From Eunapius fragilis (taxonomy: Eukaryota > Porifera > Demospongiae > Spongillida > Spongillidae), in NCBI GenBank assembly GCA_963681505.1, contig OY811977.1:4316352-4380351 (forward strand): a stretch of DNA of 64,000 bases, given 5' to 3'. Below, one piece after another: positions 4,730 through 30,149 of the stretch. The translations under genes and the position numbers were made by a program. The first letter of the stretch is position 1. Every line of letters starts with the position of its first letter. The notes under the pieces are model-generated. The model was given only the letters and a program-made list of their open reading frames with translations. It was not told where the DNA came from and did not search any database.

Positions 4730-19266
<14,537 letters not shown>

Positions 19267-19454
19267 GGTCTCGAAAAAAGAAACAAAACGATCCGTTCGT
19301 ACTAGTGTTTGATTTGTGGGAGCGTCAAGGTAAGCAGGGACAAGCGCGCTGTATCTATTTTTCTAAATTATATCGGTCTCAAGTTTGGGAAATCGTAGTC
19401 GAGATTCGTCTCATCAATTAAGCGTCACGCGATACCTCGTGATTAACAATTGAC
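19267..19454. promoter_or_regulatory. Bidirectional promoter between CNOT4 and DCPS
   Basis: Only 188 bp separate the CNOT4 start codon (minus) from the DCPS start codon (plus). Both 5' UTRs and core promoters must lie here or overlap. The segment has no TATA box at a usual distance and contains CpG sites, as is typical of divergent housekeeping promoters. Transcription starts cannot be read from the sequence. Confidence 0.75.
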
Positions 19455-21379
19455 ATGGATGTGGCGCCAAAGTCGTGCGATCATAAAACACTAAACGGCT
19501 TGCGCACAGATCGCGTATTGTTTGTAAATCCAAAGACGAAATCGATTGGCTTTGTCGGAGAATTGGGGGAATGCTCTCATCAAGCGGTTATTGTTGTTGA
19601 AAAGAAACCCTTATCACAGAACGACATCGAATGCATCGTTTCACAAACACAGCTCACACAAAACTTCACTAACGACATCTACGCACAATATGATGCTGAG
19701 ACTTCGTCAAATGTAGGAGACTTGAAAGTGATCGTGATTTCCCCAGCCACGGACGCGCACGTGCAGAAATACTTGGATCGGGACATCCACTTCATTCATG
19801 AAACTCCGGAAGATTACACGAGAGTAACCAAACCCTTCATTCAAAGACAGGCAATGAGTGTCGACGTAAGTGTCCAGTTTCGTTATATATCTTTTCCTTC
19901 ATAATGTTATATTTTTTACCTGTTGTGCAGTGGGTGTACAACATTCTTGATGGAAGCAGCGAGTCTGACCGCGTCATATACAACGACGAAGACCCCGTAA
20001 ATGGGTTCGTGCTACTTCCGGACATAAAGTGGGACGTGAAGGACAAGGATACATTGTACCTGCTCGCCATTGCTCGAACAGCTGACATTCTTTCGCTTAG
20101 AGATTTGAGTTCAGAACACCTTCCCTTGTTGAAGAATATCCTTATTAGAGGAAAGGTGACGTTCCTCCCAAAAATACTCCTCAACGTTCCCCTCAACACA
20201 CTCCCCAATGTTCTCCTCAACACACTCCCCAATGTTCCCCCCAACACACTCCGTAATGTTCCCTCCTACACACTCCCCAATGTTCTCCACAACGCACTCC
20301 CCAATGTTCCCCTAACACACTCCCCAATGTTCCTCTTAACACACTTCCCAATGTTCCCCCCTCAACACACTCCCCAATGTTCCCCTCAACACACACCCCA
20401 ATGTTCCCCTCAACACACTTCCCAATGTTCCCCTAACACACTCCCCAATGTTCCCCTCAACATGCTTCCCAATGTTCCCCTCAACACACTTCCCAATGTT
20501 CCCCTAACACACTCCCCAATGTTCCCCCTAACACACTCCCCTATGTTCCCCCTCCACACACTTCCCAATGTTCCCCTCAACACACCCCAATGTTCCCCTC
20601 AACACGCTTCCCTCAACACACTCCCAATGTTCCCCTCAACACACTTCCCCTAACACACTCCCCAATGTTCCCCTCAACACACTTCCCAATGTTCCCCTAA
20701 CACACTCTCCCCAATGTTTCCCTCAACACACTCCCCAATGTTCCCCCCAACACACTCCGTAATGTTCCCCTCCACACTCTCCCCAATGTTCCCCTCAACA
20801 CACTTCCCAATGTTCCCCTAACACACCCCCCAATGTTCCCCTCAACACACTCCCCAATGTTCCCCTAACCCACTTCCAATGTTCCCTTCAACACACTTCC
20901 CAATGTTTCCCTCAACACACCCCCCAATGTTCCCCTCAACACACTCCCCAATGTTCCCCTCAACACACTCCCCAATGTTACCTCACCATTCGCCCTTCCA
21001 TTCCCTTTCATATTGTCATGTGATCTGGTTTGAAGGTCTTTTATTATTAAGATCTCTGTGAGGTTTATTGTGTGAAGAGAATGTCATGGAAACAATAGTA
21101 AGGACAATAGATGGTTGCCTTGTTTTTTTTTTTTTTTTTTGGGCTTGGTGTATTAGATATAGTAGATTCCAATGCTCAGTGATGGAGCCTGTGATCTGCA
21201 AACTTGTTTGGCACGTTATGGCATTTCCCAGCCTATGTAGGATGTTGTGATTTTTTGGCATTAAATCTATACCTTTGTCAGCAAGCATTTCCTAATGACC
21301 CTGGTACTTTTGAATCATCTACCTTTTACATCTGGTTGGCGCATCTATTTCTGCTTGGTCTGCATGTAGGTGAAGTGAA

Positions 21380-21453
<74 letters not shown>

Positions 21454-21995
21454 CAGTGGCAATCTGTAGTATGATGTTGACTACATCGTAATAGTGCTAA
21501 TTGAAGCTAAGATACTGGGCAAGCAACAACAAAGTGGTTAAGGGTGTGTGTCTCTGGTACTACTAGCGACTTTTTAAAAGTCATCTACAAATGAATTGGA
21601 TACATGTATGCGTCTATGACAGCCATCCATCCTGGAAGGTAGCACAATGCAGTACTACGTGTCGATACTGGTACTTGTAAAAGATTTTACTTTTAAAAAT
21701 CCTGTCACTTATTCCTTTTTCTTTTGATCAGCATGCGATCACTTCCAAATACAGTGTGGCTGAAGACCAGCTGCGTGCGTACGTCCACTACCAACCAACT
21801 CACTACCACTTCCACGTGCACTTCACACATGTCAAGTACGAAGCCCCGGGCATCCTGATTGGACAGTCTCACCTACTGGAAGACATAATTGACAATATCA
21901 GTTCCATTGACCCTCTCTATTACCAGAAGAAAACCATCAGCTTTGTAGTGAAGGAAGGGACCCCATTATGGTCTGAGTACTGCAGAGCTAGATAA
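19455..21995 (+). CDS. DCPS: Scavenger m7GpppX diphosphatase (DcpS)
   Basis: Hydrolyses the cap dinucleotide left after 3'-5' mRNA decay (m7GpppN to m7GMP + NDP). There are three exons: 19455-19865 (donor gac/gtaagt), 19931-20155 (after tgtgcag; donor aaag/gtgacg) and 21732-21995 (after gatcag), all joined in phase 0, giving 299 aa. Human DcpS is 337 aa; the difference is mostly at the N terminus. Exon 1 carries the N-terminal swapped-dimer region (FTNDIYAQYD, ISPATDAHVQKYLDRD). Exon 2 has VYNILDGSSESDRV, GFVLLPDIKWD and SLRDLSSEHLPLLKNIL, all close to the human enzyme. Exon 3 has the HIT motif HYHFHVHFTH, whose central His is the expected nucleophile, then YEAPG and HLLEDIIDN. Start chosen as the first ATG before the conserved N-terminal block. 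Intron 2 carries a long minisatellite. Confidence 0.95.
20170..20985. repeat. DCPS intron minisatellite (CACACTCCCCAATGTTCCCCTCAA)
   Basis: More than 30 copies of a 22-25 bp unit fill half of DCPS intron 2, starting 15 bp after the donor. The long Pro/Asn/Thr reading frame continuing from exon 2 is an artefact of the repeat. Confidence 0.9.
21379..21452. repeat. (CA)n microsatellite
   Basis: About 36 CA units in DCPS intron 2. Confidence 0.97.
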
Positions 21996-22415
21996 CAATG
22001 CACTTAGTGGTGCTGCAGTGTACCTTTTCATTACAGCATGCTGCCTCCCAAGACCACCTCCTGCTGTCTAGCGCATGCGTTCATTTTACATACATTGTAT
22101 TGGTAAGTGTTCTTGTGGGGGTGGGTTTAATTATAAGCACATGACGTGCGTAGCTCTAAAATGCACCTTTTGCGTCCTCTACTAAAACTCTTATAGCCGG
22201 TAGGTCTAATTTTAAAACAAGTCTAGTAGTGGGCACTCGTTCATTACCAGTCCTATGGGTGTGACGAAACTGCTGACGATCGCATGTGACGACCCTACCC
22301 AACGCCCTATTACTACCAGTTTAACTCCTTCCCTGCCCTAACAGCGATCTTTTAATTCCAATAGGTGTAATTATAAACTGGAGGCAAAATTCACAGTTGA
22401 ATGTGGTCCTACAGC

Positions 22416-23082
22416 TTAATCCTCCTCCTCTTCTGCCTCTGGGGCCGCAGCACCACCTCCCTGGGTCTTCTTCTGGTTTTTTCTCTTCACACGTCCTGCC
22501 CGACCTCCGCCGAAGGGTGAGGTAAGAGCAAAGTCAATGTGCTTTTGAGAGTCCAGGCGCACCATGTAGGAAGGAACGTTCACGATCTGTTTTCGAACCC
22601 TAGTGATTTTATAAGCCATGTCCAAAAAAAAAAAAAAAAAAAAAAAAAACGGTCAAAAAAAAAACTTTAGTTTCGAGCACTTACCTGATGTGCCTTTGCC
22701 TGATGAGTACTCTGGCGTGGTGGATACTCTTGGCCAATCCCAGCTTGAACACTTGGGTCTGCAAGCGCCTCTCCAAGAAGTCTTCCAGTTTCAGACCGAG
22801 CACGTAATCGAGCTTCATGCGCGATTCATCGAGGACACCGATGCGGACAAGCCTACGGAGGATGGCGTTGCCCTCGAACAGTCGCTTGGGGTGCTTCTCG
22901 TCCAGAGTCAGCAGCTCACGTGCCGCCTTCCTGATCTTAGCCGACATGTAGCGAACTCTCCACACCTCGCGCTTGTTTCGAAGACCATATTGTCCAATGA
23001 TCTTCAGCTCTTGGTCCAATCGAGCCTTCTCGTAAGGTCGACGTGGGGTAGCGTAAGTTTTGGAACACACAATCTTGGGCAT
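22416..23082 (-). CDS. RPS9: 40S ribosomal protein S9 (uS4)
   Basis: Small-subunit ribosomal protein that binds 16S/18S rRNA early in assembly. Two exons: 22685-23082 (donor cag/gtaagt) and 22416-22599 (after actag), joined within an Arg codon, giving 193 aa, the normal family length. The protein follows human RPS9 almost residue for residue: [50 protein letters not shown], the S4 RNA-binding domain with [20 protein letters not shown] and [19 protein letters not shown], then [19 protein letters not shown] and an acidic tail ending EEEED. The start is fixed by the [11 protein letters not shown] terminus. The 85-bp intron holds A-runs. The gene converges on DCPS, with stop codons about 420 bp apart. 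Confidence 0.98.
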
Positions 23083-23620
23083 TTTATTCCCCCCACACTA
23101 AAATAAAAAAGGAAAGCTGAACACGTGCTGACAGCAGTTAATGCGCCGCACGCGCACGAGGCATCACGTGAGTTCATATTTAGATTCTTGATCTTCAGCG
23201 TTAAGATAGAAACTGTAGTTTCGCTGTTTAATATCCATCGCTGTATCGATTTCCTTTTAAAGAGGCTTTCGAAAGGGAGACAAGATCTCCGAACAAAGCT
23301 TCGCTATCGTTTCAATGGGATATAATCGCTCCTCTACACTAACTTATTTCATTATTGGAGCGGTTTCCGGTCCGCGCTGTGAAAGGCACTGTTTTTCGAT
23401 TTGTAGGCGAATGACGAAGTATCTCGTTACCAAGCACAATTAATTAAGCATCACAAAAGTAAGTGTGATGTAACCTTGGGCCTCTGTTAAAGCCACTAAA
23501 CCTATATGTCCGCTACATGTACTGTTAACGTACCCGTAGCGCACAGAATATGAAGCATTGCAAACACTGATTGTCCATGAGGTGGATGTGCATGGTTATG
23601 AATTCGTAGTTTCCTTAAGG
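23083..23620. other. RPS9 upstream intergenic region
   Basis: No coding region seen. The first bases upstream of the RPS9 start (pyrimidine-rich on the plus strand) should contain its promoter and 5' UTR. No convincing TATA box was identified. Confidence 0.5.
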
Positions 23621-24195
23621 TGGTGGTGGTGATGATCCATGAGGTGATGGTTAATGGGTAGTAGGTTGTTCAGGAGATGGTTGCTGGACGATCGTCTGTG
23701 AGGTAAGTGGTGGTGGGGGGGGGGGGGGGGGGGGGCACCAATCTGTTGTATTCCTCTACATAATTAATATTACACAGATGTAGCAGTACCGCAGTGATGA
23801 GCTCTGAGGTGGTTCATGAGGAGGTGGCGATGATCCATGAGGTGGTTCATGTGGTGGTGGTGATGATCTCTGAGGTGGCTCATGAGGTGGTGTTGATGAT
23901 CCTTGAGGTGGTTCATGAGGTGGTGGTGATGATCTATGAGGTGGTGGTGATGATCTCAGAGGTGGTTCATGAGGTGGTGATGATCCATGTGGTGGTTCAT
24001 GTGGTGGTTCATGTGGTGGTGAGTATCTCTGAGGTGGTGGTGATGATCCATGAAGTGGTTCATGATGTGGTGATGATCCATGAGGTGGTGATGATGATTT
24101 TCTCTGAGATGGTTCATGAGGTGGTGGTGATGATGTCTGAGGTGGTTCATGTGGTAGTGGTTGGTGGTCCATGTGGTGGTTTATGAGGTGGTGAT
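23620..24195. repeat. GGTGGTTCATGAGGTGGTGGTGATGATC minisatellite
   Basis: Degenerate tandem units of about 27 bp with a G homopolymer at 23712-23734. Open frames (Val/Met-rich on plus, Pro/His-rich on minus) reflect the repeat. No splice or start context supports a gene. Confidence 0.85.
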
Positions 24196-24536
24196 GTGGG
24201 GAATAGATTATACCCCACACATAAACCACAATGCGTATACATCATTACCTACTAATAACTACTGTACTCACTTCAAGCCAAACAGTCTGCAGAGGGGAAC
24301 AACATTAACCACATGCACAATACCTCTTACCACTCACCTGCTATTACCATCTGTGTGTGTACGTGTTTGTGTGGGTATGGGACTGTGCAAGTGGATGTGT
24401 ACTACAGCTATTAGTATTCATAACACCTTTACAAGGCTGCATGAATGATCTGATGTAGTAACGTCACATCGGAAGTAAAAACCTCAGTGATATTGTATCA
24501 TATTCGCAGACGTGAGCTATTGTGGTTAGTCTCGTT

Positions 24537-24720
24537 CCCAGACCCTATTTATTGAGAAACGCCTGTTGCAAGCGTCCAATTTTTGGCGGCACCAATCATA
24601 CTAAAGGTATGCATATAAGGCGGGGGAGGCGCCGTGCCCCTCCCGTAATAGCAAGGGTATCTGGGGGAACGCTGGTAGGTTGGGCCAGGAGCGAAGCCCC
24701 ACCGCTTTTGTTACTACTTT
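24537..24720 (+). mobile_element. Partial TAGTCTCGT-family terminus next to another repeat
   Basis: A diverged end (tagtctcgttcccagaccc) of the 24.93-26.13 kb family, followed by a GC-rich segment (aggcgccgtgcccctcccg...gcgaagccccacc) that looks like a separate repeat. No coding content. Confidence 0.45.
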
Positions 24721-25117
24721 TGACAGTGATATAGCCGCAAAGCAACTTACTATTAATATCTACAACGCGGCATTTCGATCATAAGCAAACGCGATATGTT
24801 GGAAAAAGGATTGATTTATTTTGATTAATAGAAGCCTAGGCCTGCAGCGTGAATCAGTAGCGCCGAGAAAACTTCTTCCTGCTGACCGGTATGACGCGAA
24901 GCCGCCTTGCATTGTGACCGACCGAAGGGTGGCTAGTCTCGTACCCAGACCCACGCCACAGCAGCGGGTGGATTACATCACCGCTACGTGGAAGTAGGGT
25001 CTGGCGGCAAAATCGTGGCCAGTGGCGTTCGAATCTGAACGTTCCAATCGGATTGCGAGCATGCGCAATTAGTGATTTTAATTGAATTTTTCGCGTGACA
25101 GTCACGCGTTCGTAATC

Positions 25118-25498
25118 ATGGATTCAGAAGAGATCACCTACGCTGCAATCAAGCTTGGCTTTCAGTGTGTAACTCCTGACCAGCGAGCAGCTATTGAAGC
25201 CTTTATGAGTGGTTGTGATGTCTTCGTTTCTTTACCAACTGGAAGCGGGAAGTCCTTCTGCTATTGGATCCTGCCTACACTGTTCGACAGACGAGCGGGA
25301 AGAACCGATGGGTCAGTAGTCATCGTTGTTAGTCCCTTGCACGCGTTAATGAAGGACCAGATCGAAGCACTAACAAGGAGAGATGCTACAGCAGTGTATG
25401 CAGGAGACGCAAACAGCGATGCCCTTCTACTAGACAGGGTAGCGGAAGGCAGATATCAGTTTTCTCCGTGCAACACTTCTACCCAATTTTTGGAGTGA
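25118..25498 (+). pseudogene. RecQ-like DNA helicase, N-terminal fragment
   Basis: A 126-aa frame that starts 93 bp inside the left TIR of the 24.93-26.13 kb element. It shows the first RecQ/SF2 helicase motifs: a Q-motif-like start (KLGFQCVTPDQRAAIEAF), Walker A SLPTGSGKSFCYW, and motif Ia VVSPLHALMKDQIEAL. Similarity stops after AEGRYQ, just before motif Ib/II. The DExH box and the whole second RecA domain are missing, so it cannot be an active helicase. The end has no good splice donor, suggesting an internal deletion near 25460. It was probably the 5' part of a transposon-encoded RecQ gene, or a captured host exon. Confidence 0.8.
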
Positions 25499-25599
25499 TT
25501 TGTTTAAAGGGAAAAGTCTTCTTCGTTTAGGTTGGTTCACAACAATCTGTTGATTATAATCAGTGTAAATAATGTACAAGCTTGCTTATCCAACTCATC

Positions 25600-25968
25600 T
25601 TACCGACACTGCAGGTGACAATTGATTACCCATAGGTCACCACGATTATCAGATGACCTCTTTCTTTGCACTGGAGTATGAACCTCCGAGGAGACCGAAG
25701 GAGCTGTATATGTATCAGACATCACTTTAACACAAGCTGCTGCTTCTTGCTCCGCCAAATCTAGTTTGCGCTTCAATTTGATGCATTTGTCAAGCAACCT
25801 AAAACATCTTATACAAAGCACACTGGAAGGTACATCGATATCGACGTCCATTCTATCGTGCGTTAGTCGCCTCAGCAAGGGTAATACGTAAACTGTAGAG
25901 GTGCTGTGCAATAGCCTTCTCTGCTTCGGCACCGACTGAAAGCCACACATAACGCACAATGAAGCCAT
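25600..25968 (-). CDS. ZAD-like Cys4 zinc-finger protein, N-terminal fragment
   Basis: The ORF starts (minus) 63 bp inside the right TIR of the same element. It opens MASLCVMCGFQSV and continues KQRRLLHSTS, VLPLLRRLT, then SVLCIRCFRLLDKCIKLKRKL. The C-x2-C ... C-x2-C spacing and helical tail resemble zinc-finger-associated (ZAD-type) or RAG1-N-like protein-interaction domains. A donor-like tgg/gtaatc after GDLW suggests later exons that are now absent. Function unknown. Its position suggests a second, DNA- or protein-binding, product of the parent transposon. Confidence 0.5.
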   Translation of the reverse strand: MASLCVMCGFQSVPKQRRLLHSTSTVYVLPLLRRLTHDRMDVDIDVPSSVLCIRCFRLLDKCIKLKRKLDLAEQEAAACVKVMSDTYTAPSVSSEVHTPVQRKRSSDNRGDLWVINCHLQCR

Positions 25969-26151
25969 CTTAATTGCCTAGTCACCCGCAGCGCGTGACA
26001 GTGGTATGAATTAATGTTAATCATTACATTCCACTGGCCACGATTTTGCCGAGAGATTCTCCAGACCCTACTTCCACGTAGTGGTGATGTAATCCACCCG
26101 CTGCTGTGGCGTGGGTCTGGGTACGAGACTAAAGGGTGGCAAGCTGCATGC

Positions 26152-26426
26152 TGCAGGGACGTAGGAGTAGGTCCGGCAGGTCCGGCTTTCGCCGGACCAC
26201 TTTTCCCCCGGCTGCACTTAAAATTTTTTTTTTAATGTGCGTCTGTTCATTTTACTATAAAACAATCAGGTCATTGCCGGCGAGTGCAAGTGAATCGCGG
26301 GTTCACAACATCGGGCAGGTTATTATCTCTGTGATTTAGCTATAACAGTTCATTGTAACAGGTTTTTATTGTGTTATGAATATAATTAAATGCGCTATTA
26401 TGAGCGCTACGTCCCTGATGCTGGTC
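26152..26426. mobile_element. MITE-like element with cagggacgtag ends
   Basis: The left end tgcagggacgtagg (26152) and right end ctacgtccctga (26409-26420) are inverted. The interior has a short GC palindrome (ccggctttcgccgg) and a T run. It lies immediately outside the RecQ/ZAD element. Non-coding. Confidence 0.5.
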
Positions 26427-26462
26427 TAAACGAGACACACGTATTATCACATACTTGCAGCT

Positions 26463-26545
26463 TAGTCTCGTACCCAGACCCAACTTTTCACAGCTATGGA
26501 TGGAATACATCACCGCTACGTGAAAAGTGGGTCTGGTAAAGTCCT
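26463..26545 (+). mobile_element. Solo terminus of the TAGTCTCGT family
   Basis: tagtctcgtacccagaccca through gtgaaaagtgggtctgg. The segment can fold on itself (cccaacttttcac with gtgaaaagtggg). No opposite terminus found. Confidence 0.6.
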
Positions 26546-27195
26546 ATACTCCATTCTCTCCAGAAAGTTGGCGAACAATCAGATTTGAGGTATGCGTTAA
26601 TTGCCCATTATCGTGGGATTAATTAGCAATTACCGACGCAAATGGAGAGAGAGAGAGCGATCGAATCGGCATGCCGACATTTGGGACATTCTAAGTCGAA
26701 GAAAAGCAGCTACTTATATTTAAGAAGCAGGATGGGTGCGATGATTGATTTTTTCATGCTAATATTGGACGTTCTTTTACAAACGCCGGCCTGTTCTGTG
26801 GTTTAGAAAACCTTACAATTAAAGCCTCTACTAAGCTTACTAACAGCACTACAGTACAGAACAGGGTTGGTTGAACACAATTTCGTGGTTTGATGACCGT
26901 TCCATCGGCACGCTCGATGGTAATTGATGCTTACTACGCGCCTGTTATATCAAAAGCTGTAGCACTCTACTCGGTGAGTGTTTTATCACTAGCTAACTGG
27001 TTACATGAAGAACGCTCATCGGGGATCAATAGTTAGAAAACTAGTCGACCCAGAAGACGCCATTTTAGGGTGCCAAACAATTAACATGACGTAGCGTATA
27101 TGAACGGTTAAATACAGTAGCGGCTCGCAAAATGCGACTTTAAGGCACATTCATTGCAACCTCAAGTAAGCTGTTAGCTGATATAAGATCCCCCT

Positions 27196-27607
27196 GGCTT
27201 TCCTGTAGTTTAAGTGGCAATCGAAATTCATAGCCCCAATCTCTAACACAAACAGTAATGAACACTTACAGTAATGAGCGTTTCATTTTTCGCCGGTACT
27301 GGTCCACACCCCCCTTGTAAATTCTCGTTCTAGCTGGGCCTAGTTTAGGTTCAGTGTAAGGGGGATAAGTACATTGGCTTCAGGTTAGGGTTAGAAAGTG
27401 GGGGGAAGCCAATGTACTTATCAGTTATCACCCTTACACCGAACCTAAACTAGGCCCAGCTAGAACGAGAATTTACAAGAGGGGTGTGGACCAGTACCGG
27501 CGAAAAATGAAACGCTCATTACTGTAAGTGTTCATTACTGTTTGTGTTAGAGATAAACCTCGATTGGGGCTATGAATTTCGATTGCCACTTAAACTACAG
27601 GAAAGCC
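27196..27607. mobile_element. 412-bp foldback element with about 190-bp arms
   Basis: The left arm runs from ggctttcctgtagtttaag (27196) to acattggcttc (27381). The right arm (27405-27607) is its near-perfect inverse, ending ctacaggaaagcc. The loop is about 23 bp. No coding content. The similarity of the arms suggests recent origin or maintenance by gene conversion. Confidence 0.85.
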
Positions 27608-28344
27608 GATGCCCCATGGAGGGTTGCTAATGAGAATCACTTTGTGACCAATGTATCAACAAACCTTTACTGTGTGTCAACTTGTTTTTTCTATCCTAAG
27701 ATTTTCTCAAGAGATAGTTTCCTACATAATCCGCCCCTTTTCTAATATTTCGTTTCCTTCTCCGCACACCCTGCCTACCTGTACTTCTTACCTTCATTTC
27801 ATGTACGACGGCTACCGTACATGTAAGTAATACCTGCACGCTCACGAGATTCAACCTTGCTATTTTACCTTGGTGGAGGATGGACACAACCTGAGTACCC
27901 AACCCAAAGAAAAAAACTTTCACTATACGGTACATTGTTACTTCAATTTTACCTCACGTGTTCACTTGCTTGATGATATACACGTGCACTAGTGTTCTCT
28001 TGGTTATGCACCTTGTTTGAGCACCTGACCACATAACACCTCCTGCTGAGAGGACCAGAGTAGGTATACATTAATAAGGATATCCATCAACATATTACAA
28101 ATGCGTGATGGTGTGAGCATCACTCCACACACTACCTTTATCTTGTGTCGTGCTTTTCATTATTGCACAGCAGAAGTTGGAGTGCTCATTGCCAAAACTA
28201 AGATGAGTAATCATGGTACGATAACTGCACTCCTCACTTCCCTTACTGCACCGAATTTATATGGTTGACAATATTCTGAATGAGACTGATATTCATGTAT
28301 ACCTATTCTGGTCCTCTCAGCTGGAGGTGTTATGTGGTCAGGTG

Positions 28345-29036
28345 CACTCTACGTGCACCCTAACACTACACACACCATCACACTACATGCACCCTAACAC
28401 TATACACACACCATCACACTACTGCACCCTAACACTACACACACCATCACACTACATGCACCCTAACACTACACACACACCATCACACTACTGCACCCTA
28501 ACACTACACACACACCATCACACTACATGCACCCTAACATTACACACACCATCACACTACATGCACCCTAACACTTACACACACACCATCACACTACGTG
28601 CACCCTAACACTTACACACCATCACACTACATGCACCCTAACACTTACACACCATCACACTACATGCACCCTAACACTACACACACACCATCACACTACG
28701 TGCACCCTAACATTACACACACACCATCACACTACGTGCACCCTAACACTTCTACACACCATCACACTACATGCACCCTAACACTACACACACCATCACA
28801 CTACATGCACCCTAACACTTACACACACACCATCACACTACGTGCACCCTAACACTTACACACCATCACACTACATGCACCCTAACACTTACACACCATC
28901 ACACTACATGCACCCTAACACTACACACACACCATCACACTACGTGCACCCTAACATTACACACACACCATCACACTACGTGCACCCTAACACTTCTACA
29001 CACCATCACACTACATGCACCCTAACACTACACACA
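28345..29036. repeat. CACTACATGCACCCTAACACTACACACACCAT minisatellite with 244-bp higher-order unit
   Basis: About 20 copies of a 33-36 bp unit. Units from about 28598 and from about 28842 repeat the same order of variants (acatgc/acgtgc, acttacac/actacac), giving a 244-bp higher-order period. The Thr/His/Pro frames are artefacts. Confidence 0.9.
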
Positions 29037-29250
29037 CACACTCTAAAACTCAACAAGTACACAAAACACTTTTATCCTTACATTATTATACAACAAAATA
29101 CACTTCACATTCTGAATGTACAACAGTGTTCAGGGGACAGGAACGCAATGTCTATAAAGTTTATAAAACATGGTGTGACATTAATTTGGTGCTAAAATAA
29201 AAGAAAAACACGACACAAGATAAAGGTATAAGAAGCACTATGCGCAGTGA

Positions 29251-30035: not shown

Positions 30036-30149
30036 TAGTCTCGTACCCAGACCCACATCGCAGCTGCGGATGGATTACATCACCGCCTCTACTCGCGTGC
30101 GGTGATGTAATCCATCCGCAGATGCGATGTGGTTCTGGGTACGAGACTA
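30036..30149. mobile_element. 114-bp palindromic MITE of the TAGTCTCGT family
   Basis: Two full inverted arms of tagtctcgtacccagaccc...gattacatcaccgc meet at a short centre. The flanks are ggcacgcgt (left) and ggcacgtgt (right), a 9-bp target duplication with one difference. It is the smallest two-ended member of the family that includes the RecQ/ZAD element. Confidence 0.85.

Follow-up and report, generated by a model that had tools for sequence, protein, structure and literature searches.

A 1.2-kb element carrying two gene starts

The DNA analysed here is a 64,000-nucleotide stretch of the Eunapius fragilis genome (contig OY811977.1, positions 4,316,352 to 4,380,351 of the forward strand), referred to below as the window. 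Within it, a 1,198-bp insertion with terminal inverted repeats and a 9-bp target-site duplication carries the starts of two genes, one for a RecQ helicase and one for a protein with a ZAD-like Cys4 domain. The coordinates and duplication AAGGGTGGC given in an earlier note on this DNA proved exact; the inverted ends are 71 nt long and match at 70/71 positions, with an inner pair at 92%. Of the two inward-facing gene starts described there, both starts stand (RecQ at 25121, + strand; Cys4 at 25968, - strand), but the RecQ homology stops at 25462 and the remainder of that open reading frame (ORF) is sequence past a deletion junction. The features of the element are:

24925..24933, no strand: target-site duplication, left copy AAGGGTGGC, 9 bp
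24934..26131, no strand: whole non-autonomous element, 1,198 bp
24934..25004, + strand: left terminal inverted repeat, 71 nt, tip TAGTCTCGTACCCAGACCC
24946..25003, + strand: palindromic arms CAGACCC...GGGTCTG inside the left end, core GGATTACATCACCGCTACG, common with the L076 family described below
25000..25025, + strand: inner subterminal inverted repeat, partner at 26031-26056, 92%
25121..25462, + strand: RecQ helicase gene, 5' coding part, 114 codons (Pfam DEAD, E 8e-14)
25460..25462, no strand: internal-deletion junction, 3-bp microhomology TTT relative to the 5.36-kb copy L031
25600..25968, - strand: ORF with ZAD-like Cys4 domain, start at 25968 (zf-AD E 0.043, under the curated cut-off)
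26031..26056, - strand: inner subterminal repeat partner, pairing with 25000-25025
26061..26131, - strand: right terminal inverted repeat, 71 nt, 70/71 match with the left repeat
26132..26140, no strand: target-site duplication, right copy AAGGGTGGC, 9 bp, identical to the left copy

Full-size and deleted copies in the genome

The genome searched comprised 219 Mb in 24 contigs. L031 (5.36 kb) matches the window element on both flanks at 95-97%, and about 4.2 kb of its middle is absent from the window element. This middle holds a DUF6589 ORF (Pfam E 4e-36), which shares the strand of the Cys4 start, and a RecQ gene with Helicase_C and RecQ_Zn_bind domains on the opposite strand. The outer end of L031 on the RecQ side is truncated, so no duplication is visible there. 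A separate family is represented by the complete copy L076, which is 5,094 bp long, has 87-nt ends at 100% identity with the same 19-nt tip as the window element, and is flanked by the 9-bp target-site duplication CCTTGCGCC. L076 contains a Cys4 start, DUF6589 (Pfam E 4e-33) and, on the opposite strand, a RecQ gene with a GT-AG intron after VDEAHCVKTW. In full-size copies the first end is followed by the ZAD-like start and DUF6589, which read rightward, and then by RecQ, which reads leftward up to the second end. In full-size copies only DUF6589, zf-AD-like and helicase domains scored above or near the Pfam cut-off, and THAP and MULE models had no match. The window element derives by internal deletion from a larger RecQ and Cys4 element, as the earlier note had proposed from the two genes at opposite ends, and L031 and L076 place a probable transposase, DUF6589, in the part lost from the middle.

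Four additional copies, each about 1.2 kb long and alignable with the window element over its full length at 93-98%, came from a DNA search. The exact deletion junction of the window element recurs in L002 and L003; L004 and L005 are of like length (1.19-1.20 kb) with more RecQ retained and a different junction, so deletion down to about 1.2 kb happened more than once. A second deletion form is represented by ten copies, about 1.4 kb each, that share their breakpoints, and longer copies were also found. In other copies the two gene starts are the same, at the same ends, as in the window element.

The earlier note's alternative was a Pack-MULE-like, one-off capture, in which fragments of a host RecQ gene and a host zinc-finger gene would lie between unrelated ends. 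The window element does have gene starts alone, and 9-bp duplications are common in MULEs; against this, both starts recur at the same ends of other copies, full-size copies carry RecQ together with DUF6589, and the RecQ piece is closest to other element copies. Used as a query, that piece gave 151 matches, the best three besides the window being 97-99% identical and all in element copies, and no single-copy host source is seen among the matches listed, the best of which lie in element copies. Other end pairs enclosing RecQ and ZAD-like genes, which the note had suggested seeking, were likewise found. Capture is not needed to account for the window element, and its probability is close to nil. 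As a candidate it was ruled out by the full-size copies and the matches of the RecQ piece to element copies, and no MULE model appeared in Pfam.

Two further insertions of 3.6-3.9 kb, L032:579-4183 and L033:671-4558, have exact 9-bp duplications. Traces of the ZAD-like start lie near one end in both, and the RecQ start lies near the other end in L032. Read by eye, their longer frames showed no DUF6589, and these insertions may therefore hold other insertions as filling. At L040 (G000:C7:4722001-4724700) several end copies stand side by side adjoining one derivative, which suggests repeated insertion into or beside an end.

Linkage of DUF6589 and RecQ, and target-site duplications

A DUF6589 protein search gave at least 101 matches in at least 85 loci, and a RecQ protein search gave at least 151 matches, the 150 listed of which merged into at least 126 loci. 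Among the matches listed, a convergent RecQ gene, on the other strand and no more than 3 kb away, accompanies 76 of the 85 DUF6589 loci (chance 0.29), with gaps of 12 to 1,312 bp between the two genes; the remaining nine have no RecQ within 3 kb in either orientation. Other orientations were counted only at loci that lack a convergent partner; extra RecQ copies near the 76 are possible. Fifty RecQ loci among the matches listed have no DUF6589 partner. The best DUF6589 and RecQ matches were convergent in 30 of 30 loci taken as DNA, many of these being related copies. In the region of contig C1 that the first 100 end matches of the list span, there are 12 DUF6589 loci and 6 unpaired RecQ loci; an exact 19-nt end lies within 6 kb and in the right orientation at 6 of the former (random mean 0.46) and at 3 of the latter.

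Ends were paired where the tips had at most 3 mismatches and the interval was 500-6000 bp, which places decayed copies outside the list. The 27 pairings were reduced to 23 insertions by removing four alternative left ends that share a right end (L001:1097, L006:1419, L017:325 and L017:557), the pairing retained at L001, L006 and L017 being the one that shows a duplication. An exact 9-bp duplication, varied in sequence, flanks 19 of the 23 end-to-end insertions, counting L002 and L011, which are ambiguous as both lie in TG repeats. The duplications at L015 and L016 have one mismatch each, and none of the 9-bp kind is present at L003 and L008.

Structure and distribution of the ends

The ends in the window are not chance matches, since the 19-nt end TAGTCTCGTACCCAGACCC occurs there seven times with at most 3 mismatches against a shuffled mean of 0.00, and genome-wide 563 + 546 times as exact copies against 0 for a reversed-pattern control. 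The ends of both families are laid out as a 12-nt tip, CAGACCC, a core with GGATTACATCACC, and GGGTCTG, which is able to pair with CAGACCC. This block could fold as a hairpin in the left end of the window element, and folded DNA of the palindromic end has a z-score of -2.9.

Ends of this type also occur elsewhere in the window. One feature is a mini-element:

30036..30149, no strand: palindromic mini-element with the same ends as the window element, 114 bp, flanks GGCACGCGT / GGCACGTGT (8/9 match)

Lone left ends lie at 9935-9953, 24527-24545 and 26463-26481; a search up to 12 kb away gave none of these three a right-end partner flanked by a 9-bp duplication. The left ends at 9935 and 26463 have the inner part AAGTGGGTCTGGTAAA in common and therefore point to a further family. 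Many tandem arrays (periods 2-244) lie in 14798-29039 of the window and coincide with its strongly GC-skewed part.

Nature of the DUF6589 protein and its Cys4 head

DUF6589 is probably the DDE transposase of the element, because two predicted DUF6589 structures resemble the Hermes, P-element and RAG1 transposases. Foldseek by itself is not decisive on this fold. DUF6589 has conserved acidic residues, which are candidates for a catalytic triad, and a DUF6589 sequence profile found no relative in the PDB up to E 10. In sponge gene models the Cys4 domain stands at the N-terminus of DUF6589, and on these models from other sponges it most likely forms the transposase's N-terminal domain and not the separate protein that the earlier note had supposed.

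A profile of the Cys4 head found no convincing relative in the PDB, the best match (E 0.16) being a chain labelled ZBTB17. In an alignment of heads, more members matched zf-AD than any other Pfam family (4/9, best E 0.026, below the cut-off), and single members reached E 0.02 with other families as well. ZAD is the zinc-finger-associated domain found at the head of ZAD-ZNF transcription factors in insects. Conceivably, though we think it rather doubtful, DUF6589 is an unrecognised P/hAT-like branch of transposases and the Cys4 head a true ZAD; the insect factors would then have this domain in common with RecQ-carrying transposons, or have acquired it from them, much as THAP is shared with P elements. 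The literature searches made gave no account of DUF6589 as a transposase linked to RecQ and headed by a ZAD-like domain. Where ZAD and transposases were looked for together, the transposase passages available concern THAP; a paper on transcription factors derived from transposons mentions neither ZAD nor Academ, and another, rich in RecQ mentions, deals with subtelomeric RecQ genes of fungi.

The nearest named relatives of the DUF6589 proteins of this genome are sponge proteins, and those named among the matches listed come from sponges, molluscs (many of them bivalves), one brachiopod and one priapulid. Three protein searches, with the best 120 of 254 matches listed in one and 76 and 35 matches in the others, showed no named fungal DUF6589 protein among the matches listed, the majority of which are nameless. 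Viral contigs were scanned for a virus-borne source; one scan had no pattern match, and the other had 15 pattern matches and no relative. Separately, the proteins P0171-P0180, of or like Ephydatia muelleri and mostly with Pfam DUF1280, share stretches with the DUF6589 gene model P0100. The shared stretch is about one tenth of P0100 for most, is 54-75% identical in P0171, P0172 and P0174-P0180, and is N-terminal by eye. They may be gene models in which mobile elements lying side by side have been fused.

Proposed mechanism

Taken together, the data make it highly probable that the window element is an internally deleted, non-autonomous copy of a cut-and-paste, RecQ-encoding (AcademH-like) DNA transposon. 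In such an element the DUF6589 protein would act as a DDE transposase, with its ZAD-like N-terminus serving to pair subunits or to bind the ends. Each end offers the 12-nt tip and the palindromic CAGACCC...GGGTCTG block, and the palindromes are putative binding sites. The transposase would excise the element and join it to the two target strands 9 bp apart, and the RecQ helicase may act by opening or clearing strands, either at the ends or, during repair, at the gapped product. The window element would have arisen when about 4.2 kb was lost at the 3-bp microhomology, in the manner of a failed gap repair. The deletion forms, that of the window included, may then have spread in trans by means of enzymes from full-size copies; the window form is present at two other sites and the second form at ten.

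These observations tie DUF6589 (PF20231), a Pfam family that is large and has no assigned function, to transposon anatomy and a predicted DDE fold, and hundreds of hypothetical proteins could be re-labelled as a result. In most loci of this genome the probable transposase and RecQ move together as convergent genes, which opens to testing the question of why certain transposons require a helicase of their own. For the origin of ZAD zinc fingers, the ZAD-like head is a checkable lead.

Comparison with known transposon systems

Kolobok elements duplicate TTAA, and P elements make an 8-bp duplication and have an N-terminal zinc domain, THAP. The present element is like P and Hermes (hAT) in the predicted DUF6589 fold, and like P in having an N-terminal zinc domain, and it differs from them in its 9-bp rather than 8-bp duplication, in a ZAD-like head in place of THAP or BED, and in its RecQ partner. 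With KolobokH it shares cut-and-paste movement and a RecQ helicase, and differs in duplicating 9 bp of varied sequence instead of TTAA. That it is itself a KolobokH or P-type element with RecQ would fit the P-element transposase among the best fold matches and the RecQ of KolobokH, as well as one rhodophyte Kolobok with RecQ on the complementary strand, as here (PMC9587614). KolobokH is, however, confined to fungi in the part of that paper available, and its RecQ lies downstream of its transposase domain (PMC9587614) and not on the opposite strand, tail to tail, as in the 76 of 85 listed loci here. Together with the Pfam matches of the full-size copies, which are only to DUF6589, zf-AD-like and helicase domains, and the differing duplications, this makes a KolobokH or P-type origin exceedingly improbable.

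By the title of a 2020 paper by Kojima (Mob DNA 2020, 11:15), AcademH is said to be a helicase-encoding lineage of the Academ superfamily in animals and fungi. In the excerpts available, AcademH has 9- or 10-bp duplications and its difference from AcademX is seemingly tied to helicase versus nuclease (PMC10045372), Academ is named with a RecQ helicase (PMC3627910), AcademH is present in three fungal phyla (PMC10799480), and Academ is bivalve-rich among molluscs with a mean length of 5,565 bp (PMC10294476); further mentions are given without domain detail (PMC12210899, PMC8290104). The earlier note's premise that RecQ helicases are not standard partners of animal cut-and-paste transposases must be set against their being a known partner of eukaryotic transposases, RecQ being named in these excerpts for Academ (PMC3627910) and KolobokH (PMC9587614). 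The present element agrees with the AcademH descriptions in its 9-bp duplication, a helicase (RecQ) in addition to the probable transposase and an animal host, and its size is near the mean of bivalve Academ. RecQ with 9-10-bp duplications in animals fits AcademH (PMC10045372, PMC3627910), and therefore the note's suggestion of a possibly undescribed element is probably wrong.

None of the available excerpts mentions DUF6589 by name, a ZAD-like head or a RecQ gene convergent with the transposase gene. Another reading is that of a separate, unnamed DDE superfamily with DUF6589 and RecQ, convergent with AcademH in duplication length and helicase. DUF6589 was not found in the literature searched, no sequence link joins it to a transposase of known structure, and its fold is as near to P element and Hermes as to the others listed. 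We nevertheless regard a separate superfamily as unlikely, given that RecQ, the 9-bp duplication and the animal host all agree with the AcademH reports as excerpted, and that the many bivalves among named DUF6589 matches accord with the bivalve-rich Academ of molluscs, with its mean of 5,565 bp (PMC10294476). Set beside AcademH by description, not by sequence, the element is best filed as a member of that lineage.
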